Positions 6,392 through 64,000 of a stretch of 64,000 nucleotides of DNA are shown here, one piece after another. Numbering within the stretch: the first letter of the stretch is position 1; every line of letters starts with the position of its first letter. The stretch spans positions 62,001 to 126,000 of the forward strand of contig NZ_LNFY01000010.1 in assembly GCF_011057685.1 (NCBI RefSeq), read 5' to 3'. The stretch comes from Thermotoga sp. Ku-13t. Its GTDB lineage: Bacteria; Thermotogota; Thermotogae; Thermotogales; DSM-5069. The notes under the pieces were generated by a model, which did not search any database, was not told the origin of the DNA, and was given only the letters and a program-made list of their open reading frames with translations. A program made the position numbers and the translations under genes.

Positions 6392-7309
6392 TCACTGCTT
6401 CTCTCCCTCTTCTGGTTCTTTCCTTAGAGCCTCCACTATACCTGCCAAGCTCGACACGATCGCCGTAGCTTCGATCGGGAGGAATATCTTGGTCGCTTTA
6501 CCGTTGGCGATCTCCTTGAGCGCCTCGAGGTATCTTATCGCGATCAAATCGCTGGTTGGAGCGCCTTCGTGTATCGCTTTAAAGACGTTCAGTATGGCCT
6601 GGGCCTGGCCTTCCGCTTCGGCTATGAGTTTGTAACGATTCGCCTCGGCGACCTTCTTTATCGCCTCTGCCTCACCTTCCGCCCTCAGTATTGCTGCGTT
6701 TTTCTCGCCTTCAGCCTTCAGAATCTCCGCCTGTTTGATACCTTCTGCTTCGAGAATCGCAGCCCTCTTGGTTCTTTCCGCCTTCATCTGTTTGCTCATC
6801 GCTTCGGTGATGTCCTTCGGTGGATCGATCTTCTTGATCTCCACCCTTGTGATTCGAACGCCCCACTTGTCTGTCGCGTCGTCCAGAACGGTCCTCAGTT
6901 TCGCGTTGATCTTTTCCCTGGAGGTCAGCGTCTGATCTAACTCGAGTTCACCTATCACGTTCCTCAGGTTGGTCTGTGCGAGTTTCAGAGTGGCGAACTG
7001 GAAGTTGTTGACGTTGTAGACCACCTTGTACGCGTCGGTTACCTCGTAATAGATCACGGCGTCCACCGTCACCACGACGTTGTCCTTCGTTATGACTTCC
7101 TGCGGCGGAACGTCTATGACCATTTCCCTGAGATCGACCTTGATCATTCTGTCGAAGAACGGTATGATGAAGTGTAGGCCAGGTCCGACTTCCCTGTGGA
7201 ACTTTCCAAGTCGTTCGATGAGACCTCTCTGGAACGGTCTCACAACCTTGATACCGGTCGCGGCGATTATGAACAGCAGAACGACCAGCACAGCGAGGGC
7301 TATCATCAT
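6392..7309 (-). CDS. SPFH/Band 7 (stomatin/slipin, QmcA-like) membrane protein
   Basis: 305 residues. One N-terminal membrane anchor (about 2-20) precedes the Band 7 domain starting [18 protein letters not shown], with the characteristic [10 protein letters not shown] and VDLRE stretches. A long Ala/Glu/Lys-rich coiled coil at about 175-235 follows. SPFH proteins oligomerise into membrane scaffolds. The NfeD gene overlaps its start by 4 bases, the classic SPFH-NfeD pair, in which NfeD's OB fold binds the SPFH cage. No protease domain is encoded nearby. Confidence 0.93.
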
Positions 7310-7752
7310 GCTTCACCACCCCTTTCGATTTTTCGCACCACCACGTGGGCACCTTCCACCTTCAGAATCGTCACTTTTTCACCTTCTTCGATCGTTGTAT
7401 CGTCCGATTCAGAATAAGCCCGCCAGATTTCACCGTTCACCTTCACGAGGCCCTTGCTCTGCTTGTTGTCTATGGTCTCTACGACTATCGCTTCCTTTCC
7501 TATTATCTCATCGATGTAGATTTTTCTCGTTTCAGATTTCGTGAGTTTCTTGGCCAGGGGTCTTGTGAGGAGGACGAGGGCTGCAGAGACCCCCATGAAG
7601 GTGACCAGCTGCATTATCGTTCCAGATAGAAAGCTCACCCCAGCCGCCGCAAAGGCTCCGAGGGCGAACCAGAAGAAGAAAAATGTTGGTGTGAGGATCT
7701 CGGCAACCACCAAGATTACTCCGAGGATGAGCCAGAACACGTAAGGCTCCAT
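7306..7752 (-). CDS. NfeD-like short membrane protein
   Basis: 148 residues, the short NfeD form without the ClpP-like protease domain. Three hydrophobic segments (about 6-25, 27-44 and 48-65) are followed by a C-terminal OB-fold (about 75-148) containing the family's '[10 protein letters not shown]' and '[10 protein letters not shown]' strands. It begins 7 bases after a GGAGG site. The overlap with the SPFH gene indicates translational coupling. NfeD proteins are thought to dock onto stomatin-type proteins. Confidence 0.92.
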
Positions 7753-7764
7753 CGTATCACCTCC

Positions 7765-8601
7765 TCACATCGTGAACAGTTCGTTCGGATCAACGTAATA
7801 AACCTCGAACGATTCTTCTGAGAGGTTCTTCAGATACTTCTCTATCTTTCCCGAATAACGCGACGATATGTGGTAGAGAATGAGTTTCTTAACCTTTGCC
7901 TCCCTGGCTATGGAGAGAACCTCATCCAGAGATGCGTGCGCATTCATCTTCCTGTCTTCTTTCTTCAAGAATGTGCATTCGTGCAGGAGGATTTCCGTTT
8001 CAAAGGCGTCTTCGGGGTCTATTCCGTAAGTGTCCCCTGAAATGGTGAGAACCTTCTTCTCATAAGATTCCGTGATGCTGTCTTGACCGAGTTCTCGAGA
8101 GAGGCGGGCGATCTGTGCCTGCGATAGGTTCTTGTACTCTTCTTTCAATCTTCTTCGAACTTCGATCACGTTGTATCCGAGACTTTGATCGTACTGTGTG
8201 TGCCTGACTTTGAAAGGGACCACGTACCTTGCAAAGCTTCCCGCCTGTCTGAGGAAGATCTTCTGTCCCGCAGTTATGGGGACGAAGCTCAATTCAAACC
8301 TCAGATCACCATTGACTTTCAGGATGAACTGCAGCCACTCCTCGACCGCCGTGTTTCCTTTCGGGTAGTATACGATGAGGGGTTTTTCTCTGTCCCCCAT
8401 GGAGTTGTTTCTGGAGTTTATTATCGTCCATAAACCGGATATGTGATCGACGTGACCGTGTGTCAGGAAGATGTACTTTATGGCGTAGATCCTGTTCCCC
8501 ATGGTCAAAGAAACGCCTTCACCGGCGTCGAACAGGATCCTCTCTGGCGCGTAATAGATCCAAGTTGAATAGAGAGCCTTGGAGTATACCTCGAGTATCA
8601 G
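7765..8601 (-). CDS. rnz: ribonuclease Z (tRNA 3' processing endonuclease), CTG start
   Basis: 278 residues of metallo-beta-lactamase fold with the zinc motif HGHVDH at 48-53. The other ligands expected of the family include HECTF and a C-terminal YHISSRY. It cuts tRNA precursors at the 3' end. The conserved N-terminus (SKAL.STWIYY.PERILFDAGEG) lies upstream of the first ATG, GTG or TTG in frame. An in-frame TGA sits only three codons before a CTG (8601), so CTG is the probable start. It overlaps the rplI stop as CTGA, and GGGAG lies 9 bases upstream. Calling the gene from the TTG at 8508 would delete 31 conserved residues. Confidence 0.9.
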   Translation of the reverse strand: MILEVYSKALYSTWIYYAPERILFDAGEGVSLTMGNRIYAIKYIFLTHGHVDHISGLWTIINSRNNSMGDREKPLIVYYPKGNTAVEEWLQFILKVNGDLRFELSFVPITAGQKIFLRQAGSFARYVVPFKVRHTQYDQSLGYNVIEVRRRLKEEYKNLSQAQIARLSRELGQDSITESYEKKVLTISGDTYGIDPEDAFETEILLHECTFLKKEDRKMNAHASLDEVLSIAREAKVKKLILYHISSRYSGKIEKYLKNLSEESFEVYYVDPNELFTM

Positions 8602-9062
8602 CCCTGTTCACTCCCTTTGCCGGCGACGACCTCAACCTTCACCGTGCCTCTAACGCCTCCGGGAAGCCTCAATTTGACGTCGTACAACCCGACTTCCTTG
8701 ATGGGTTTTTCGATTTCGATCCACTTCTTATCGATCTCGGTTCCCACGCTTTGACTCAACAACTCTGCGAGGGCCACGCCCGTGAGCGCCCCGAAGAGTT
8801 TACCACCAGCTCCAGCCTTGACCTCGATCCTGTGAACCTTCCTCTGAAGCTGTCTCAGAATCTCTTCGCTCTTTTTTCGAACCAGATCCTCCTTGTGTTC
8901 TTTCATCGCTTTTTCGTTTTCCAGCCTTTTAATCTCACCTTCCGTGGCCGGTTTGGCGAGACCTTTGGGTATCAAATAATTCCTCGCGTACCCATCGCTC
9001 ACTTCCTTGATCTCGTTGGCTTTCCCAATATTGGGAACATCCTTGAGGAGTATGACCTTCAC
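8598..9062 (-). CDS. rplI: 50S ribosomal protein L9
   Basis: 154 residues, standard for L9. The N-terminal RNA-binding domain has the L9 signature (ILLKDVPNIGKANEIKEV...GYARNYLIPKG), followed by the long connecting helix rich in Lys and Glu (about 45-75) and the C-terminal domain. The GTG at 9062 follows GGAGGGGGAG. The open frame continues upstream without a start that fits the protein. It heads the leftward operon rplI-rnz-NfeD-SPFH. Confidence 0.96.
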   Translation of the reverse strand: MKVILLKDVPNIGKANEIKEVSDGYARNYLIPKGLAKPATEGEIKRLENEKAMKEHKEDLVRKKSEEILRQLQRKVHRIEVKAGAGGKLFGALTGVALAELLSQSVGTEIDKKWIEIEKPIKEVGLYDVKLRLPGGVRGTVKVEVVAGKGSEQG

Positions 9063-9086
9063 GTTTTCTCCCCCTCCCTCAAGTTC

Positions 9087-9092
9087 ATTATA
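9087..9092 (-). promoter_or_regulatory. possible -10 of the rplI operon
   Basis: A perfect TATAAT lies 24 bases before the rplI GTG on the minus strand. No good -35 is found at 16-18 bases. Confidence 0.45.
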
Positions 9093-9200
9093 CATGGTGG
9101 GTCGAATCACATTTATGGAACAGTCCTTTCGTTTCAACCCCACAAAGTGCAGTTCACCACGATCCGCATTTTTCTGGTTATACTCTCTGTGGGTGAGAAC

Positions 9201-9428
9201 ATGGAATACGACGTGTATCTGGGCATAGACAGTGAGGACGTTCATAAGCTGAGCTACATCCTCGAGGTTGAGGACAATCTTTTGAACATGAGAAAGTACC
9301 AGAACGGGCTTCTGAGGATACTCGTTCCTGCCGATCTGCTCGACGAACTGCTGAACCTTCTTCAGAGTGTGAAGGATTATGTGAAGTTCGAGCTGGTGGA
9401 CGTGAGACTGAACCGTGGGGTTATTTGA
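9201..9428 (+). CDS. small uncharacterised protein (75 aa)
   Basis: 75 residues starting MEYDVYLGID, alpha/beta in character, with many Leu, Val and Asp residues (e.g. LRILVPADLLDELLNLL). The ATG follows GGGTGAGA. It overlaps the next gene (yqeG) by 14 bases and so probably forms the head of the yqeG-yqeH operon. No catalytic motif is visible. Its form suggests a small ACT- or ferredoxin-like fold, but that is inference. It may belong to one of the short DUF families of Thermotogota. Confidence 0.7.
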   Translation: MEYDVYLGIDSEDVHKLSYILEVEDNLLNMRKYQNGLLRILVPADLLDELLNLLQSVKDYVKFELVDVRLNRGVI

Positions 9429-9900
9429 TTTTCTCAAACCCGACGAGTTCGTGGACGATGTGAAAAACCTGCGGATCGACGAATACCTTTCCATGGGGAA
9501 GGATGTGTTCGTTTTTGACTTTGACAACACGCTCGGTTTCTGGCGGACCGCCGAGGTGAGGGAAGATTTCAGACCTGTGCTGGAATATTTGAAATCCAAA
9601 TCGGGCCAGGTTTTCATCGTGTCAAACGGTCGTCCAAGAAAGCTGAAGGATCTGGATGGATTCAACGTTGTCTGGCGGGCGGGTAAGCCTTTTTCGAGGA
9701 AACTGAGGAAAATTTTCGAAGATTTCAATCCATCCCGTGTGGTGCTCATAGGCGATCAAATTTTCACCGATGTGGTAACCGGAAAAAGGCTGGGTTTCTA
9801 CACGGTGAAGGTGAAACCTCTCTCTAACAGAGAATTCTTCGGCACCAGGATACTGAGAGTTTTCGAAAAGATTCTTTTCATGTGTTGGAAGGGAAGATGA
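9415..9900 (+). CDS. YqeG family HAD-type phosphatase
   Basis: 161 residues. HAD motif I is DFDNT (about 37-41), motif II is VSNGRP (about 67-72) and motif III/IV is the GDQIFTDV stretch (about 109-116), all diagnostic of the HAD IIIA YqeG family. The yqeG-yqeH order is the same as in Bacillus. The substrate is unknown. The GTG start overlaps the upstream small gene by 14 bases, and the ribosome site is weak, suggesting translational coupling. Confidence 0.88.
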   Translation: MGLFDFLKPDEFVDDVKNLRIDEYLSMGKDVFVFDFDNTLGFWRTAEVREDFRPVLEYLKSKSGQVFIVSNGRPRKLKDLDGFNVVWRAGKPFSRKLRKIFEDFNPSRVVLIGDQIFTDVVTGKRLGFYTVKVKPLSNREFFGTRILRVFEKILFMCWKGR

Positions 9901-9903
9901 GCG

Positions 9904-11001
9904 ATGAAGTGTAAAGGATGCGGTGCAGAGCTTCAGCATGAGGACGAAGCTCTTCCCGGTTACATACCCAAAGACGTGTTCGAAAGAAGAACGCTCTTGG
10001 GTGAAGAGATTCTCTGCCAGCGTTGTTTCAGAGCGAGACACTACGGAAAATTGATGCCCGTAAGGTTCGAAGAGTTCTCGAACCAGCTGCGAGACGTGGC
10101 CAGGTCTGTGGATGTGGTCGTGTGGGTTCTCGATATCACCGATTTCGAAGGCAGTTACGATCCACAGGTCACACAGATCCTTTCCGGGGTGAAAAAGATT
10201 CTCGTTGTCAACAAGATAGATTTGCTCCCGAGGGCCGTCACCGTGCGGGAGATAGAAGAGTGGGTTCGGAAACAGATCAGCGATCATCCTTTTGATGTGA
10301 TTCTCACCAGCGCCACGGGGCATTACGGGATCGGAAGGTTGAAAGAAAGGATTCTCAAGTTTCGTCAGGTGCTCTTCGTCGGCGTGACCAACGTTGGTAA
10401 ATCTTCACTCTTCAAAGAACTCACCGGGATGGATGTGAGCGTCACACCTTTTCCCGGAACAACTCTGGGATTCATACAGGCGAAGATGTCCGACACCGTG
10501 CTTTTCGATTCGCCTGGCATAACCACCGGTCGCAGGCTGATAGATCTGCTCAGTCCGGAAAGCCAGAAAAAACTCACACCAACGGATCATTTGAGCAGGT
10601 TCACCTTCAAGCCGGACCGAAACGACGTGATCTTCCTCGGAGGGGTGTGCCGGCTGGATTTCGACTTTGAAACGGAGTTGCGGCCCATCTTCCAGATCTT
10701 TGCGAGCGAGGCGGTGAAGTTCCATCAGACGAGCAAGAATAAGGCTGAGGATCTCTGGAGAAGACAGTATGGAAAACTTCTCACCCCGCCTTTCGATCCA
10801 GAGGAATTGCCGCTGGAGAATTTGAAACTCCGGGAAGAGAGGTTCACGCTGAACGCCGGTGAGGAGCTCGCGATAGCAGGTTTAGGCTGGTTGAGCGTCC
10901 GTCGCGGACCGTTTGAAATTTGTTTGAAAACGATCGATGGTATAAATATAAGAAAGAGAGAAGCACTGGTGAACCCTGCGAGAAAGGAGAGACGAGCATG
11001 A
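9904..11001 (+). CDS. yqeH: YqeH-like circularly permuted GTPase (ribosome biogenesis)
   Basis: 365 residues. An N-terminal treble-clef zinc finger (CKGC at 3-6, CQRC at about 39-42) precedes a circularly permuted GTPase domain: the G4 motif NKID (about 102-105) and the G5-like SATG come before the G1 P-loop GVTNVGKSS (about 160-168) and G3 DSPG (about 201-204). YqeH in Bacillus acts in 30S subunit assembly. It begins 3 bases after yqeG, and its TGA overlaps the next ATG (ATGA). Confidence 0.92.
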   Translation: MKCKGCGAELQHEDEALPGYIPKDVFERRTLLGEEILCQRCFRARHYGKLMPVRFEEFSNQLRDVARSVDVVVWVLDITDFEGSYDPQVTQILSGVKKILVVNKIDLLPRAVTVREIEEWVRKQISDHPFDVILTSATGHYGIGRLKERILKFRQVLFVGVTNVGKSSLFKELTGMDVSVTPFPGTTLGFIQAKMSDTVLFDSPGITTGRRLIDLLSPESQKKLTPTDHLSRFTFKPDRNDVIFLGGVCRLDFDFETELRPIFQIFASEAVKFHQTSKNKAEDLWRRQYGKLLTPPFDPEELPLENLKLREERFTLNAGEELAIAGLGWLSVRRGPFEICLKTIDGINIRKREALVNPARKERRA

Positions 11002-56387: not shown

Positions 56388-57581
56388 GTGCCTTACTTTC
56401 AATACACGGCTCTGACGCCTGATGGGAAAAGAATAAAAGGAACGGTTCAGGCCAACAGCGAATCTCAGGCTGCCGACCTCATCAGGAGAAGGAACTACAT
56501 CGTGTTGAAGCTTCAGCCTGCCGCTTCGAAAAGAGACTTCGTGCTGTTCGGGGTCCATCTGAACGAGCTTGTGGTGTTCTGCCGTCAGTTGGCAACGATG
56601 GTGAGCGCTGGCGTGAGGCTCAAGGACGCTTTATCCATACTGTCAAGACAGGACGTGTTCTCGTCGCGTTTCAGAAGGATCATCACCAACCTGGTACTGT
56701 CACTCGAAATGGGTATGTCCTTCTCGGAAGCTTTGAGGAACGAGAAGGTGTTCGATTCCGTATTCATCAACCTCGTTTCGTCAGGCGAAGAAGGTGGCAT
56801 ACTCGACAAAGCCCTGGAAAAGGCTTCGGACTTTTACGAATCTTCGAAAAAGCTTCAGGATGAGGTCAAATCCGCCATGGCTTACCCAACCTTTGTTCTC
56901 TTCTTCGCGATAGGGGTCATATTCCTGATAACGTTTTACATTCTGCCAAAGTTGATTTCAGTCTTCGGAAGTATACCCACCAGTGGGATCGTCAGTTTTC
57001 TCATGAACGCGAACAGGTTTCTCTCTCAGCACTGGCTCTCCGTCTTGATCACTCTGGTTTTAGGCATCATCGGGATCGTCATCTTCTTAAGGACCAGGTA
57101 CGTCAGTTACGTGAAGGAATGGCTCGCAACACTGTTTCCTCCGCTCGCCAGGCTTCGCAACATGATGGCGGTGGAACGTTTCTGCAGAATCTTGGGAACG
57201 CTGATCGGTAGTGGCGTTCTTCTGACTAAAGCTGTTGAAATGGCTGCTGCCGCATCGAACAGTCCCAGACTGATCAAATTGAGCAAACGCATAAGCGAAA
57301 GGGTACGCGAAGGTGCAAGTCTTAGACAAGCGATGCTCGAAAGCGGAGTCTTTCCACAACTGGTTTACGAGATGGTGGGAACGGGTGAGGAGACAGGAAA
57401 GCTCGAAGAAGTGTTGCTCAAGGTGGCAGACTTCTACGAAGATCAAATAAGAACGGGCGTGAAAAGGTTGGTTTCTTTGATCGAACCGATGCTGATCGCG
57501 GGCGTTGGAGGATTCATAGCGTTCATGGCACTGACAATGTATTCGACGATCTTCCAATTGCAGCAAACCATAGGCAGGTGA
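56388..57581 (+). CDS. pilC: type II secretion/type IV pilus inner-membrane platform protein (GspF/PilC)
   Basis: 397 residues. Two copies of the GspF domain (about 65-185 and 265-385) each start with a 'CRQLATMVSAGVRLKDAL' or 'CRILGTLIGSGVLLTKAV' helix and end with membrane helices. It anchors the assembly ATPase at the inner membrane. GTG start behind AGGAGAGGTGA. First gene of the operon with pilM, N, O, P and Q; the ATPase gene is not in the window. Confidence 0.92.
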   Translation: MPYFQYTALTPDGKRIKGTVQANSESQAADLIRRRNYIVLKLQPAASKRDFVLFGVHLNELVVFCRQLATMVSAGVRLKDALSILSRQDVFSSRFRRIITNLVLSLEMGMSFSEALRNEKVFDSVFINLVSSGEEGGILDKALEKASDFYESSKKLQDEVKSAMAYPTFVLFFAIGVIFLITFYILPKLISVFGSIPTSGIVSFLMNANRFLSQHWLSVLITLVLGIIGIVIFLRTRYVSYVKEWLATLFPPLARLRNMMAVERFCRILGTLIGSGVLLTKAVEMAAAASNSPRLIKLSKRISERVREGASLRQAMLESGVFPQLVYEMVGTGEETGKLEEVLLKVADFYEDQIRTGVKRLVSLIEPMLIAGVGGFIAFMALTMYSTIFQLQQTIGR

Positions 57582-57988
57582 TTTTAACGTTAGTCGAAAT
57601 TGTTGTCAAACTACTGGTTCTGGTCTCTTTCGCCGTGGGGATATTTTCGTGCTTGCCCGTCCTGGACAGAGTGATGGGATACGTTGAACCACTGTATCTG
57701 AAGTGCCTCGTCTATTCAGGATTGCGTTACGTACACGGTGACAATCCATCTGGGACCGTGACGATAAGTGTGATCAACGACGAAATAAGGCTGAGGTGCG
57801 TTCCTTCGAATAAAGACAGAAAAGTTGTGACGGTCGCACTCGTTCCAAAAGGCTCGGTCAGAATCGTGAGTGATGGCGGACCCATAACACTATCATCTGT
57901 GAATGTCATGAACGCAGGGAGCATTTTGAGCGACGAGTGGGTTGTCAGTTTTCCACCTGTGGTTCTGAGAATGAATATCAAGAGGTGA
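57578..57988 (+). CDS. pseudopilin-like protein without a visible leader
   Basis: 136 residues. The start, ILTLVEIVVKLLVLVSFAVGIFS, resembles the mature N-terminus of type IV pilins and pseudopilins (FTLVELLVVLAI), including Glu at position 5 from the Ile. A prepilin leader ending in Gly is missing, with only Met before it. The rest (about 30-136) is beta-rich. It is translationally coupled to pilC (GTGA). Assignment as pseudopilin is an inference; alternatively an anchored accessory protein. Confidence 0.55.
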   Translation: MILTLVEIVVKLLVLVSFAVGIFSCLPVLDRVMGYVEPLYLKCLVYSGLRYVHGDNPSGTVTISVINDEIRLRCVPSNKDRKVVTVALVPKGSVRIVSDGGPITLSSVNVMNAGSILSDEWVVSFPPVVLRMNIKR

Positions 57989-57992
57989 TGTT

Positions 57993-58973
57993 GTGCAGAT
58001 ATTTCACAAGATGATAACTGCGATCGATGTGGGAAAAAGCTGGATAAGCGGGGCGAGGGCGAGAAAGTTTAGAGGCATCATCTCGAACCCGGTTTTCGCG
58101 AGCGTCAGAAACGGAGAGAACGTTGTGGAACGTCTGAAGACGCTGAAAGAGAAGCTAAGGCCAGACGTGGAGGACATAGTCGTAACGAACTTTCCAGTAG
58201 AAGAAGTGCTCTTCAATACCCTGGAAATCCCCAGGGAACTGAGAAAATCAGAGCTCAGAACGTACATAACCGCTGAAATGTCGAGGATTCTGAACCTTTC
58301 TTCATCGGAGATAGCACTCGATTTTGTGAGAAACCCCATCGGGAAAGCGCTTGTGATGGTGACGAAGACACGCCGCCTCAACGAATGGATAAGTAACATC
58401 ACCGCAGCAGGTTTTCCACTACCAGATGTGGTGATGCCCGACGTCTTTAAGTATCTGCAACTGTTGAAGATATCCGGGCCTGAAGCGTGCGTGCTGGTGC
58501 TTTTGACACACGATTACAGCGTGGTCATCGTGTGCGTATCTGGCTCACCGCTGGGCATCAGGACGTTCTCTTATTCTCTGGATGAAACCGTCTCCATAGT
58601 CAGTGAGGAGACAGGTCTTGACGAGGTAGAGATAGTCCGGGAGCTATCCAAGCAAGAATCCAGTAACGTGAAGAACATTTTCGAATCCATAACGGTTGAT
58701 TTGCCCTATTCTGTGGAAAGGGAAATCATATTCTTGCTCAGCTCATCTCTGCCAGGATCGTCCATAAGGGATGTCGCGAAATTCTACATTTTCTGTGATC
58801 CTTTAGGGTTTACACCCCATTATGTGAAGCTCTTCGACACAGTTGAAACCATGCAGGGAAAGATCCAACCGTTGACCCCGAGCATCGATGTGAAAAATTT
58901 ATCTGTGGGAACGATTGGACTTCTGGTACGTGGGGGTGAAGAATTTGGAAAGAATAAACTTGTTCAGGTATAA
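57993..58973 (+). CDS. pilM: type IV pilus assembly protein PilM-like
   Basis: 326 residues. An actin-like ATPase fold with ITAIDVGKSW (about 8-17) and a later strand pattern; PilM binds PilN's cytoplasmic tail and bridges to the motor. Sequence is divergent, so the call rests on the fold pattern and the position before PilN, PilO, PilP and secretin. GTG start. Confidence 0.8.
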   Translation: MQIFHKMITAIDVGKSWISGARARKFRGIISNPVFASVRNGENVVERLKTLKEKLRPDVEDIVVTNFPVEEVLFNTLEIPRELRKSELRTYITAEMSRILNLSSSEIALDFVRNPIGKALVMVTKTRRLNEWISNITAAGFPLPDVVMPDVFKYLQLLKISGPEACVLVLLTHDYSVVIVCVSGSPLGIRTFSYSLDETVSIVSEETGLDEVEIVRELSKQESSNVKNIFESITVDLPYSVEREIIFLLSSSLPGSSIRDVAKFYIFCDPLGFTPHYVKLFDTVETMQGKIQPLTPSIDVKNLSVGTIGLLVRGGEEFGKNKLVQV

Positions 58974-59520
58974 AAGACCTGTTTTGAGGTTTTCTTCCTT
59001 CTTGATCCTTACGCTCGCGCTGATCGCACCGGTTCTCGCCATGCGGTTCACTTTGGATTTTTACAAGCGCTCCGTTATCGATTCTATTTACGCCAGCCAC
59101 GGAAGAATCGCTGAGAAATACAGAATCGGTCGCGCCCCATCTCTAACTGGCATCATCGCAACGCTGGACTCTATCAACAACCAGCTCGTTCAGACCAGTA
59201 AACGTCTCCAAGCGCAGATAGACGTTCTGGAGAATCACATCAAAAGTTTCAACGACAGGATGCAACCGTTGCACAAGATTCTGGAGACGCTGAAGAAGAC
59301 CGATCAGAACTGGATCGTCTTGAAGCAGCTGATCTTTGGTGACTCTGTCAGGATCGATCTGTACGAACTCTACGATCCAGCCATAATCAGAACGGCCGAT
59401 CGGTTAGAGAAAGCCCTGCTCGAACTTGGATACAAGGTGAGCAAGAATGAAGAGTACGACGCTCTCATGCAATTCCTTGGCAGAAGGATTTGCAGCGTCT
59501 CTGTGGAAGGAAGGAGGTAA
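58945..59520 (+). CDS. pilN: type IV pilus assembly protein PilN-like
   Basis: 191 residues. The INLF motif (residues 4-7), which in PilN binds PilM, is followed by a membrane helix (about 15-38) and a periplasmic helical domain with coiled-coil repeats. The TTG at 58945, a few bases after GGGGGTGAAG, keeps INLF near the N-terminus as in the family. Overlaps pilM by 29 bases. Confidence 0.8.
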   Translation: MERINLFRYKRPVLRFSSFLILTLALIAPVLAMRFTLDFYKRSVIDSIYASHGRIAEKYRIGRAPSLTGIIATLDSINNQLVQTSKRLQAQIDVLENHIKSFNDRMQPLHKILETLKKTDQNWIVLKQLIFGDSVRIDLYELYDPAIIRTADRLEKALLELGYKVSKNEEYDALMQFLGRRICSVSVEGRR

Positions 59521-59521
59521 C

Positions 59522-59986
59522 ATGCCAAGAAGATTGGCCATCCTGCTGGCCTTGCTCATCACGTTAGTTTCTGCGCTCTATTTAGATGTGTACGAATATT
59601 TCAGATCCAGGAACCTCATCCTCAAACTCGAAAATTCCTTCATAAAGCTCGAACAGTACGACGAGAACGTGGAGCAGAAAAGGGAATATCTGGCGAAACT
59701 TGAAAGCACCGTTCAACCACGCGTGACACTGAAAGAACTCGAAAATTTATCGAAAGTTTCGAGTCTGTCGTTCTCACTACAGAAGGATGGAACATACCTC
59801 GTTGAGGGAACCTGTGGAGCTGATCAGCTGGTGAACCTGCTGAACGAGTTGCTGAAGAATGCGAACCTGACCGTTCAGCTACTCCAGATAGAAGCAAAGG
59901 AACTCGTGCCCGTGGTCACGGATCAAGCGCAGAGATACACGAACGTGAACGTGAAGATGGTTCTGAAGGGCGTGATGCTCGAATGA
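59522..59986 (+). CDS. pilO: type IV pilus assembly protein PilO-like
   Basis: 154 residues. One membrane helix (about 5-22), a coiled coil (about 33-75) and a small ferredoxin-like domain (about 80-154) form the PilO pattern. PilO pairs with PilN in the periplasm. ATG 4 bases after GGAGG; overlaps the next gene by ATGA. Confidence 0.75.
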   Translation: MPRRLAILLALLITLVSALYLDVYEYFRSRNLILKLENSFIKLEQYDENVEQKREYLAKLESTVQPRVTLKELENLSKVSSLSFSLQKDGTYLVEGTCGADQLVNLLNELLKNANLTVQLLQIEAKELVPVVTDQAQRYTNVNVKMVLKGVMLE

Positions 59987-60447
59987 ACAGGCGTTTGGTG
60001 GTCTTACTTCTGGTACTCGTTGCAGTTTGGTCTGTGGCCATCTACGTGCTGTTCTTATATCAAAAATCACCCACAGCTGCTCCCGCAACACGGACCAGTG
60101 AAGCTGTCATTCAGCCTTTGATCAGGAGGTTGAACGATCCAGATATCGAGAGGTTCAGAACGATTGTTGGAACGTCGAAGCCAATTGAGAACGTCTTCGA
60201 ACCTTACGTGTTGAAGCTCAACAGAGATCGATTGATGCGTCAGGCGCTCTCAGAACTGGAAGTGCTGCCGAGTTACAAATTCAGAGGTTACTTCGTGGGC
60301 GAGAACGAAGATTTTGTGATGTTTTCAAGCGGTATTGTAAGACCCGTTGGATCGATCCTTGAGAATAGATACCTGATAGTTCACGTGGTGAGCTTCGCTG
60401 CGATAGTTATGGATCTGTCCACGGGGAACCTTTTGGTTGTGAAGTGA
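59983..60447 (+). CDS. PilP-like pilus assembly protein (tentative)
   Basis: 154 residues. One membrane helix (about 5-26), a linker with Pro/Ala/Thr, and a small beta domain (about 90-154, YKFRGYFVGENEDFVMFSSG, ending LSTGNLLVVK). Position between PilO and the secretin is that of PilP, which links the inner-membrane complex to the secretin. It has a membrane helix where PilP is usually a lipoprotein, so it may be a functional counterpart only. Confidence 0.6.
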   Translation: MNRRLVVLLLVLVAVWSVAIYVLFLYQKSPTAAPATRTSEAVIQPLIRRLNDPDIERFRTIVGTSKPIENVFEPYVLKLNRDRLMRQALSELEVLPSYKFRGYFVGENEDFVMFSSGIVRPVGSILENRYLIVHVVSFAAIVMDLSTGNLLVVK

Positions 60448-60458
60448 GGAGGGGGACA

Positions 60459-63400
60459 ATGAGGAAGACCGTTTTCCTGCTGCTTCTAATTGTGAGCGTA
60501 ATCGGCGTCGCAGCCTCCCTGATCACGATCTCACCAACCTTCAGCACCGCGGGTGTCACACTGACGATGCAGTTCGATACGGACATAAGCGAGAAGAATG
60601 TGTATCTGGAGAAGAATGCCTCGGGTTCTCTGATTTCGATCTATCTGCGGGATGTGAGACCCGTTTCAGATTCTTTCTTCCTGCCCATCGCTTATGGTCC
60701 AGTTGAATCTCTGAGGGTGATCAACACGCGCCAGGGAAGTCTCGTCTTAGTGCAGCTGCTCGTTCCGAGGGAGCCAGAGACAATCTTCTCTGGAAGAACG
60801 CTGAAACTCTTCGTTCCATCCTCTCAGAAGAGGCTGAGCCTCGCGCTGGTGGACGGAGATCTGGAGACGGCGGTGAAGTATCTGTGTGAAGAGTTGAAAT
60901 TGAACGTTGTGCTGTCAGACAGAGTGAAAGCCCAGAAACTCTCACTGAAACTGGACGACGTGCTACCAGAAGACGCACTGAGAAACATTCTTGTCACTGT
61001 GAGAGTGAACAACGAACCTCTCGCTTACAGTTACATGCCCGATGGGACTTTACACGTGGGCACGCGCAGCGATATCGCCGCACGTTTCCAGAAGTTCTGG
61101 GGAGTCTTTGAGGTGAAGGATGAGAGCTTAGTTCAGAAGCTCGAGTCCTTGCTATCGCCTAACGTCGTCATGAGCTATCTTGCGAACAGGTCGGTGCTGT
61201 TCGTCTACGGAGACGTTCAGGAACAGGAAATAATAGCCAAAATTCTTTCACTGACACCACAGGTGGAGACCAGAGAGTTTTCCTGTCCGGGTTTCATAGA
61301 AGAGACAAAGAAACTGTTGGATGCGTTGAAGGGTCTTTACAGCTTCGAATATCATTTGCTCGAAGGCCTGGATAGGTTCGTTTTGAAAGCCGATCCACAG
61401 ACTCTGGACAAGGTGTTCAGTTATCTGAGAGAGCTCGAGAGAATCGTCAGATCGAGACATGCTCAGCAAGAAGTTCAGCGACCTGAAGCAGCTCCAGAAA
61501 CAGTCAGCGAGAGAATTCGAGTCATTTACCCGAAGGAAGCGATCGAAGTTCTCAAGAAGTTCAATCTGGGAATCGAGGAGATGCCTTTCGGCGAGATCGT
61601 GATGAGTGGTGAGAAAGAAAGGATAGAACTCGTGAAGGAAGTTCTCAGAGACCTTGGATTTTTCGATTCCCAGCAGATGGGGAGGTTCATCGTTCCGAAG
61701 GCTCACTCTGAAAAAGTCCTGAATGCACTGACGCAGATTCTAGCCATACCAAGTTCGAGGATCGTGATTTCCGAAGATGGAAACAGCATCAACATCGTTC
61801 TGCTGGTACCGGAAGAGGTTCAAAAGGCTGCCGAAGATCTCATAAGAGGTTTGATGAGGTTCTTCACGTCTTCAAGACTCTCAGAGGTGTTTTTCCTCAG
61901 AGACAGGGAAACAACGCAGCAGGTCTCGGCGATCCTGAACCAGATATACGGAATAGAAACGAGCAGCGTTGAGAACGTGCTGAAAGTTGTCGGCACGAAG
62001 GATGAAATAGAAAAAGCCAGGAAGTTCATCGATATGTTCGTGAGGGAGAGACACACCAAAACCCTTCCACTCGCGATGGACCAGGAACTGTTCGCTGAGC
62101 TCAAAATGCTCGTTGAGTCCATGTTCGATGTCAAGCTGGAAGCGAATCTGAGGTCACTCGGCCTGTTATTGCTTAGCTCTGAAGACAAAGATCAGCTCGA
62201 ATCCGCGGCGCGAGAGATCGAATCTGTGGTGAAAATGTTGCCCGAAAAGCCCTCTGAGGCGTACGAACTGGTCCCTGCGATCGAAAACGTTGATTTCAAC
62301 GATCTGAAGCTCTTGCTATCCGAGATATACAGGGTGAGGATCGAAAGAACTCAGTTCTTCTACCTGCTGGTTGGACAGAAGCAAGCCCTGGACGGAGCCA
62401 AACAGCTTCTTGAAAGGATCAGAAACTTAGTTGGTAAACCTGCCGAGATCACGTACAGGCTAGTGAAGGTCAGGGAAGATATCTCAGTTGAAGCCCTGAT
62501 CCGCGCCATCAGCAGTGTTGCAAAGGTCGAAGCGATCAGTATCGAAAACCTTCTCTTGCTGAAGGGTGAGGAATCCCAGATTTCGAAGGCACTCGAACTG
62601 ATAAGGCTCATCGAAGAGAATGTGCCCGTCAAGGTTGAAGAACCGAAAAAAGTGACCGTGGTGGTGAAGCAACTCGTACCGGAGTTCCCGGCGAGCGAGT
62701 TCAGAGTGTACCTCGAGAAGATAGGTCTGAATGTTGATTTCGAGGCTTTCACGTCTCTGAACACGGTGGTCATTTCAGGTGAAGAAGAGACAGTTAGCAG
62801 AGCGGCTGAAGAGTACGAAAAGTTTGCCGAAACGTTTCTGAAGCAGTTACAGGCACGTGTTGAAGAGGAAAAGAAAAAGCAAGAGAAACCTCTGAAGGTG
62901 CAGAAGGTGTCTGAAAACACCGTTTCAATAGACTGCGATGGAGTTCCGCTGAAGGATGTTGTGGAGGCTGTTTCGCAGGAACTCGGGATTTCGTTGATGT
63001 TTGTGACCTTCCCACAGGAGATCATCACAATGAGGGTTTCTTCCATGAGCTGGGAACAGTTCAAGGACGTCGTGCAGAAGAACTACGGCTACAGCTTCGT
63101 CGAATCAGAAGGCGTCACCGTTCTGCTGAAACCTGTTCCCACACCCGACACAACCGTAGAGCAGAAGTTCATCTACAGAGTCTCCCACAACCTCGATCGG
63201 ATCAAATCCGTGGTGGAATTTTACGGGGGAAAGGTGTACGTGGACGATCTGAACGATTTGATCATCTTGACGAACATCAGTGCTAAAGCCAAGCGAGAAG
63301 TGGAAAAAATCATAGATGAGTTGTCCAAACCTTTGAAGCAGGTGGAAATAGAGGCGCAGTTCATCGACAGGGCCCTGACAGATGAGCTCACAAGAAGGGC

Positions 63401-64000
63401 TAACCTCAACCTGACCATGCCACCTGCAACGATCGACGTTGGTAGCTCCGGCAGTTTGAACCTCTCGACTTCGGTGATCGACCTGGTGGATTACAGGAAT
63501 CTACTGAGCCTCCTTGGAGGGGCTCAGTTGACGCTGAACGCCGAGGCGCAGAAATCCAACAGTACGACGGAGCTGCTGGCGAGCCCAAGGATGGTCACCG
63601 TGAGTGGCAAGGAAGCTAAGATCTTGATAGGTGAGCGTGTACCGTACGTTGCCGGTATAGATGAAAACGGTCGGGTCATAATTGATTACATGGACGTCGG
63701 TATTCAGTTGAGGATCACACCAGTGGTGCGCAACGACGGTAGCATACAGCTGAAGGTTTACACAGAGGTCAGCGAAGTTAAGGAGCGAACGCTCTCAGGT
63801 ATGAACACCTACGGTAAGGTCACGAGGCAGGCTGAAACAGAAGTGATTCTGAAGAACAACCAGACTCTGGTGATAGGTGGTCTGGTCCAGGATAAGTCTG
63901 TCAAAACCGTGGCGAAGGTCCCGGTGCTCGGTGACCTTCCTTTCATAGGTCAGATTTTCAGATCCGTGACCGACAGAAAGGACAAAACGGAACTGCTCAT
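60459..64000 (+). CDS. pilQ: giant secretin (PilQ/GspD-like), C-terminus cut by the window edge
   Basis: 1180 codons are visible. After a signal peptide come an AMIN-like domain (about 20-110), an STN/N0-like domain (about 130-190), roughly nine KH-like N1 repeats of about 55-65 residues (starts near 217, 272, 351, 414, 478, 535, 603, 666 and 735), a second N0-like part (about 823), another N1 repeat (about 905-960) and the secretin pore. The pore ends with PVLGDLPFIGQIFR and TELLI, so only a few residues are missing. It forms the outer-membrane channel of the pilus or secretion system. The ATG follows GAGGAGGGGGACA. Length fits the roughly 1,280-residue Thermotoga secretin. Confidence 0.9.
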   Translation, partial: MRKTVFLLLLIVSVIGVAASLITISPTFSTAGVTLTMQFDTDISEKNVYLEKNASGSLISIYLRDVRPVSDSFFLPIAYGPVESLRVINTRQGSLVLVQLLVPREPETIFSGRTLKLFVPSSQKRLSLALVDGDLETAVKYLCEELKLNVVLSDRVKAQKLSLKLDDVLPEDALRNILVTVRVNNEPLAYSYMPDGTLHVGTRSDIAARFQKFWGVFEVKDESLVQKLESLLSPNVVMSYLANRSVLFVYGDVQEQEIIAKILSLTPQVETREFSCPGFIEETKKLLDALKGLYSFEYHLLEGLDRFVLKADPQTLDKVFSYLRELERIVRSRHAQQEVQRPEAAPETVSERIRVIYPKEAIEVLKKFNLGIEEMPFGEIVMSGEKERIELVKEVLRDLGFFDSQQMGRFIVPKAHSEKVLNALTQILAIPSSRIVISEDGNSINIVLLVPEEVQKAAEDLIRGLMRFFTSSRLSEVFFLRDRETTQQVSAILNQIYGIETSSVENVLKVVGTKDEIEKARKFIDMFVRERHTKTLPLAMDQELFAELKMLVESMFDVKLEANLRSLGLLLLSSEDKDQLESAAREIESVVKMLPEKPSEAYELVPAIENVDFNDLKLLLSEIYRVRIERTQFFYLLVGQKQALDGAKQLLERIRNLVGKPAEITYRLVKVREDISVEALIRAISSVAKVEAISIENLLLLKGEESQISKALELIRLIEENVPVKVEEPKKVTVVVKQLVPEFPASEFRVYLEKIGLNVDFEAFTSLNTVVISGEEETVSRAAEEYEKFAETFLKQLQARVEEEKKKQEKPLKVQKVSENTVSIDCDGVPLKDVVEAVSQELGISLMFVTFPQEIITMRVSSMSWEQFKDVVQKNYGYSFVESEGVTVLLKPVPTPDTTVEQKFIYRVSHNLDRIKSVVEFYGGKVYVDDLNDLIILTNISAKAKREVEKIIDELSKPLKQVEIEAQFIDRALTDELTRRANLNLTMPPATIDVGSSGSLNLSTSVIDLVDYRNLLSLLGGAQLTLNAEAQKSNSTTELLASPRMVTVSGKEAKILIGERVPYVAGIDENGRVIIDYMDVGIQLRITPVVRNDGSIQLKVYTEVSEVKERTLSGMNTYGKVTRQAETEVILKNNQTLVIGGLVQDKSVKTVAKVPVLGDLPFIGQIFRSVTDRKDKTELL

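Follow-up and report, generated by a model that had tools for sequence, protein, structure and literature searches.

The secretin gene at the end of the window, i.e., the whole 64,000-nucleotide stretch of DNA analysed here, most likely encodes PilQ, the secretin of a type IV pilus (T4P) rather than of a type II system. Our main reading, to which we attach a probability of roughly 70%, is that the N-domains of PilQ stack into a long pilus-guiding tube across the wide periplasm below the toga, and that the length of this tube is tuned by whole N1 units. According to this reading, twelve or more PilQ copies would form the outer-membrane gate through their C-terminal domain, as other secretins do, and the N-domains would stack as rings from the outer membrane towards PilP, PilN and PilO at the inner membrane, where the distal (first) N0 would meet PilP. 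Such a tube would guide the pilus through the unusually wide periplasm, and the array length would follow the gap by gain or loss of whole N1 units through in-frame duplication. The N1 domains of secretins of solved structure form rings. We infer the ring stacking, the absolute length of the PilQ tube and the passage of the pilus; in known secretins, each N-domain corresponds to a ring and the rings are stacked as a periplasmic tube, as with the six rings of Thermus PilQ (PMC5745081; PMC4463427). It is an open question how machines that span the envelope are fitted to the width of the periplasm. In the present case, a single gene seems to record this width as a repeat number, with the OmpA tether as an independent ruler in the same genomes, and the idea can be tested over about twenty genera, several of which are culturable.

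The pilQ gene starts at ATG 60459, which is the start of the signal peptide and was already the first position given in the initial annotation; the reading frame is open as far back as GTG 60444, but this upstream codon is a less likely start. The stop codon, equivalent to 64029-64031, lies 31 bases beyond the window end, so the complete gene was read from the genome, giving a full-length protein (P0001) of 1190 aa. Pfam, AlphaFold and Foldseek place it in the secretin superfamily, with a PF00263 domain and N0/N1-type periplasmic domains both present. In two AlphaFold models, the order is an AMIN-like β-domain, an N0, the N1 array, a second N0, a last N1 and the secretin domain, as follows:

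60459..64000, + strand: pilQ, long secretin, truncated at the end of the window (ORF and genome copy; Pfam matches to Secretin at E 2.4e-37 and to Secretin_N at E 1e-8)
60459..60512, + strand: signal peptide, residues 1-18 (hydrophobic N-terminus MRKTVFLLLLIVSVIGVAAS; helix 2-14 in the model of residues 1-413)
60513..60818, + strand: AMIN-like β-domain, residues 19-120 (18-120 in the model; all-β sandwich in both models, pLDDT 80-93 in the 1-413 model)
60834..61064, + strand: first N0, residues 126-202 (AlphaFold 1-413, pLDDT 85-93; Foldseek to PilQ and XcpQ N0-N1-N2)
61071..61262, + strand: probable degenerate N1, residues 205-268 (conserved β-α-β-β-α sequence pattern; weak profile match)
61266..61472, + strand: N1-type, residues 270-338 (AlphaFold 1-413; profile match E 7e-4)
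61500..61652, + strand: N1-type, residues 348-398 (AlphaFold 1-413; profile match E 1.4e-6)
61677..61874, + strand: N1-type, residues 407-472 (full-length AlphaFold; corresponds to the Pfam Secretin_N match)
61881..62039, + strand: N1-type, residues 475-527 (full-length AlphaFold; HMM iE 1.2e-9)
62052..62234, + strand: N1-type, residues 532-592 (full-length AlphaFold; weak in sequence profiles)
62256..62429, + strand: N1-type, residues 600-657 (full-length AlphaFold; HMM iE 4.7e-9)
62451..62621, + strand: N1-type, residues 665-721 (full-length AlphaFold; HMM iE 1.1e-7)
62652..62828, + strand: N1-type, residues 732-790, the final helix extending to ~808 (full-length AlphaFold; HMM iE 3.2e-10)
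62895..63128, + strand: second N0, residues 813-890 (ββαββαββ order, full-length AlphaFold, pLDDT 75-85; phylum-wide conservation)
63165..63323, + strand: last N1, residues 903-955, adjoining the secretin (full-length AlphaFold; profile match E 2e-4)
63339..64000, + strand: secretin domain, residues 961-1190, the final 10 residues beyond the window (Pfam PF00263; PDB PilQ and GspD E 1e-25)

The models thus put the total at two N0, nine N1 and one probable N1, besides the AMIN-like domain and the secretin domain. This count bears out the initial annotation, which had proposed about ten N1 and two N0 domains in one secretin, a number from which an unusually long periplasmic chamber probably follows. 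With nine to ten N1-type domains, the protein exceeds three in number, as expected of a Thermus-type multi-ring PilQ, in which these domains would also stack as separate rings. Both AlphaFold runs were fed with the window sequence and sequences of related loci. The full-length run (window residues 1-1180, 11 sequences) reached a mean pLDDT of 61.9, with values mostly of 70-86 between residues 405 and 960; its pTM of 0.28 with 11 sequences makes its inter-domain geometry uninformative. Since it gave no model for residues 122-400, the second run was made on residues 1-413 (mean pLDDT 79.6). The N1-type units of the models show the βαββα order. Residues 203-268 appear in the 1-413 model mainly as helices at lower confidence, and an in-register profile match (E 0.04) suggests that they are probably a degenerate N1. 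The AMIN-like domain had no Pfam AMIN match in the window protein, with residues 18-120 being all-β in both models, and a Pfam STN match for the first N0 is present in the Thermotoga orthologue. The second N0, rightly seen at the outset, had been considered unusual as one of a pair; it is conserved throughout Thermotogota, and most simply reflects a canonical N0-N1-secretin core behind an added N-terminal N0-(N1)n extension.

Structure and sequence comparisons both indicate that the repeats are genuine N1 domains. The best Foldseek matches in the PDB were the secretins GspD, PilQ and InvG for the full-length model, and PilQ and XcpQ N0-N1-N2 for the 1-413 model, and the best PDB sequence matches of the protein were PilQ structures. 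Pfam alone sees just one N1 and the secretin domain, hence an undercount. An HMM built from Kosmotoga-type repeats (cut-off iE<0.01) detected four N1 domains, at iE 1e-7 to 3e-10, so that structure models were needed for the rest; no domain of shuffled and reversed control sequences reached 0.01 against this HMM. In a profile-profile comparison with twenty Mesotoga repeats, seven of the nine window repeats matched at E 7e-4 to 4e-10, residues 405-472 (0.004) and 531-594 (0.07) being weak. Besides, orthologues at 42-94% identity cover the whole gene.

The most striking fact lies outside the window, in the expansion of this array to about sixty domains in Mesotoga; the far longer arrays of related genera were absent from the initial annotation. 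Homologues were found in 89 of 103 Thermotogota genomes by a phylum-wide search. The long secretin measures 732-944 aa in Petrotogaceae- and Mesoaciditoga-type genomes, 1190 aa in the window family, 1283-1287 aa in Thermotoga, 1425-1620 aa in the Fervidobacterium group, 2635 aa in a Kosmotoga-type genome and 3900-4575 aa in Mesotoga. This is accompanied by an N-domain count of ~9 in a genus of the Mesoaciditoga group (938 aa), ~12 in the window PilQ, 14 in Thermotoga, 35 in the Kosmotoga-type genome and 54-62 in Mesotoga. At iE<0.01, the N1 units alone number 10 in Thermotoga, 25 in the Kosmotoga-type genome and 43-53 in Mesotoga, where the five orthologues (3900-4575 codons) are located as follows:

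L035:712-14436, - strand: Mesotoga pilQ
L036:1552-13275: Mesotoga pilQ
L037:1744-13443: Mesotoga pilQ
L038:1633-13395: Mesotoga pilQ
L039:1947-13646: Mesotoga pilQ

The giant gene is a single uninterrupted ORF in all five genomes, one of them a single contig. The 4575-aa protein carries 53 N1 repeats at iE<0.01 over its whole length and 52 consecutive, unbroken N1-type repeats, spaced by ~66 residues, between residues 693 and 4115; when degenerate repeats, the two N0 and the last N1 are included, we estimate about 60 domains. Both AlphaFold runs were made on the window protein, so that the arrays of Mesotoga are read from sequence profiles only. A profile of the Mesotoga repeats gave nothing significant against the PDB, where KH domains and V. 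cholerae PilQ were weak matches. The Mesotoga proteins are the largest secretins found in this analysis. Outside Thermotogota, 59 complete secretin ORFs from one motif scan had a median length of 615 aa, the sole outlier being a Myxococcales PilQ of 2255 aa (L122:3785-10549) that is lengthened by a different route, with a coiled coil of ~1450 residues lying between AMIN-like domains in place of N1 repeats. In Kosmotoga pacifica, the long pilQ appears on the + strand as two large ORFs in different frames, ~800 nt apart (L041:2069-6190 and 6997-9927), which is either a broken gene or a sequencing error. A second, short secretin with an N0-N1-secretin architecture, of ~385-434 aa throughout Thermotogota (e.g., 385 aa at L004:4417-5574, - strand), clusters with an Fn3-like periplasmic protein and a possible β-barrel. 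No description of these domain arrays was found in open-licence papers on the Mesotoga secretin, TM0088 or Thermotogota PilQ.

The length of PilQ was then compared with that of the toga tether. In T. maritima, OmpA1, made of an SLH domain, a 316-residue coiled coil and a membrane anchor, holds the toga ~50 nm away from the cell membrane (PMC3387000). SLH proteins were gathered from 63 genomes, many of the sequences being inspected for a coiled coil and a C-terminal anchor, and genus medians of ORF lengths were compared for 19 genera, with contrasts calculated on a secretin-domain tree. The lengths of PilQ and of the SLH/coiled-coil/TM tether were correlated over the 19 genera (Spearman 0.85), as independent contrasts (r 0.71, or 0.78 without Kosmotogales) and as means of nine clades (rho 0.92). 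Without Kosmotogales, each 65 PilQ residues corresponded to 2.4 ± 0.5 nm of coiled coil. This slope comes close to the 2.5-4 nm that an N-ring measures in height, although ring height had no part in the calculation; the results support a tube following the gap. The short paralogous secretin and PilB showed no significant positive trend with the tether, few genera being available for both controls. The comparison was chosen after both length tables were seen, and left out SLH proteins of ~1000 aa in the Fervidobacterium group and of 864 aa in a sister genus, as well as Mesotoga SLH proteins without coiled coil. In genomes of the Fervidobacterium group, very long coiled coils are present in SLH proteins of ~860-1050 aa (L195, G067:C1:475300-479300; L200; L228), which occur beside normal OmpA homologues of 440-585 aa.

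The suggestion made at the outset that a long channel could bridge the space under the toga is therefore strengthened by the relation between PilQ and tether lengths in 19 genera, but it fits Kosmotogales poorly, as their arrays overshoot the tether. There, ~35 and 54-62 domains imply tubes of 84-250 nm for tethers of 53-72 nm, and a straight fit, in which tube length equals tether length, was rejected for this group, the excess being two- to three-fold. One Petrotogaceae genus deviates in the opposite direction, with a PilQ of 732 residues and a tether of 40 nm. Because of the excess, a straight ring stack is unproven in Kosmotogales. T4P often sit at the cell poles, and it is there that the toga balloons (PMC3387000), so that a longer tube could be needed at this position in Kosmotogales; or else, the extra domains do not stack. 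A bolder version of the main reading, which we hold tentatively and at somewhat less than even odds, is that the Thermotogota secretin is a length-adjustable tube of ~9 to ~60 rings, and that the Mesotoga tube, with a length well above 100 nm and a mass of ~6 MDa, is the longest by far; it perhaps spans the swollen polar periplasm. If the Kosmotogales arrays do stack, the resulting channels would greatly exceed in length every secretin channel described so far.

The best-surviving alternative is that the KH-like N1 domains are joined flexibly, as beads on a string, or pack non-coaxially, with rings formed by the last few domains only and the remainder acting as an extendable tether or binding peptidoglycan, OmpA or DNA. 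The two- to three-fold excess in Kosmotogales is what such a string would allow, the repeats look like KH folds, and AlphaFold gave no confident inter-domain geometry; moreover, the N4 ring serves as a hinge in Thermus PilQ, where one ring gap is also unresolved (PMC5745081). We nevertheless consider it unlikely, since outside Kosmotogales array length scales near-linearly with the tether at about one ring per N-domain, the N1 domains of secretins with known structures form rings (PilQ: PMC5745081), and the regular ~66-residue spacing in Mesotoga leaves short linkers.

Returning to the tube reading, its tuning by whole units is illustrated by two exact 300-nt copies in one Mesotoga genome (L035:6824-7123 and 7628-7927). 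Their spacing of 804 nt keeps the frame and equals four N1 domains, so that they are a recent in-frame duplication. Between two close Mesotoga genomes, dN/dS was 0.11 over 2845 codons of the array and 0.025 at the secretin end, which shows purifying selection on the array. The exact in-frame step together with this dN/dS indicates that arrays grow by whole-domain duplication and are kept by selection. The same duplication would also be expected if array length drifted neutrally by unequal recombination, the link with OmpA length being due to shared ancestry; the interrupted K. pacifica ORF and the number of independent clades, only about nine, speak for this. Such drift is improbable, more so than a flexible array, given the independent contrasts (r 0.71-0.78, sign-flip p 5e-5 to 7e-4), the dN/dS of 0.11 in the array, and PilQ lengths that are nearly constant inside genera such as Thermotoga (ORFs of 1283-1287).

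The gene order in the window is pilC-x-pilM-N-O-P-Q and is identical in Mesotoga. Upstream of pilQ, it comprises:

56388..57581, + strand: pilC, inner-membrane platform protein (Pfam T2SSF E 1.1e-59)
57578..57988, + strand: small protein with a single hydrophobic segment at its N-terminus, in the place of a minor pseudopilin; a Mesotoga gene of the same size occupies the same place
57993..58973, + strand: pilM-like (position; weak, sub-threshold match to Pfam PilM_2 at E 0.002)
58915..59520, + strand: pilN-like, one TM segment (position, topology); the true start is probably downstream of the listed TTG
59522..59986, + strand: pilO-like (position, topology); start taken as the internal ATG MPRRLAILLALL
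59983..60447, + strand: pilP-like, N-terminal TM and β-rich C-terminus (position, topology)

The small protein between pilC and pilM had no family match and is possibly a minor pseudopilin. The pilN-, pilO- and pilP-like products had no Pfam match either and were assigned by size, order and topology. Despite the expansion of PilQ, the sizes of PilC, PilN, PilO and PilP are unchanged between the window and Mesotoga. Two ATPases of the T2SSE family are also encoded in the genome; their ORFs, of 566 and 353 aa, correspond in size to PilB and PilT. The T. maritima orthologue TM0088 is listed as pilQ (PMC5637354). The operon order, these two ATPases and the listing of TM0088 make a T4P secretin the most likely assignment. 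A type II-like protein export system, which has parts in common with T4P and to which the GspD structures among the top fold matches and the assignment of PilN, PilO and PilP from position and topology only could lend weight, is very improbable in view of the PilM-like gene, the AMIN-like domain, the pilMNOPQ order, the PilT-sized ATPase and the PilQ structures as top PDB sequence matches.

Among the closest known systems is Thermus thermophilus PilQ, the longest relative of solved structure, a 757-aa protein with six rings (N0-N5) that measures ~35 nm, the periplasm being 70 nm wide (PMC5745081; PMC4463427). These six stacked rings contradict the initial statement that known secretins have three or four N-domains, and the window PilQ therefore extends a known theme. 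Both are T4P secretins of thermophiles with a wide periplasm, several N-domains, which in the window PilQ would likewise be stacked, and an N-terminal N0, but the window PilQ has 11-12 N-domains and a second N0 beside the secretin, and its orthologues reach up to ~60. With Neisseria and Vibrio PilQ (AMIN-N0-N1-secretin; 4av2, 6w6m), it shares N0, N1, secretin and a pilMNOPQ operon, its AMIN-like domain being a probable counterpart of their AMIN domain; it differs in that an extra N0 and about nine N1 stand in front of a canonical-looking C-terminal N0-N1-secretin. GspD of type II systems (N0-N1-N2-N3-secretin) has the same N-domain folds and secretin, but just three N1-type domains and another operon. 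Finally, TM0088 of T. maritima (ORF of ~1285 aa) is an orthologue of the same architecture with about two more N1 units than the window PilQ.
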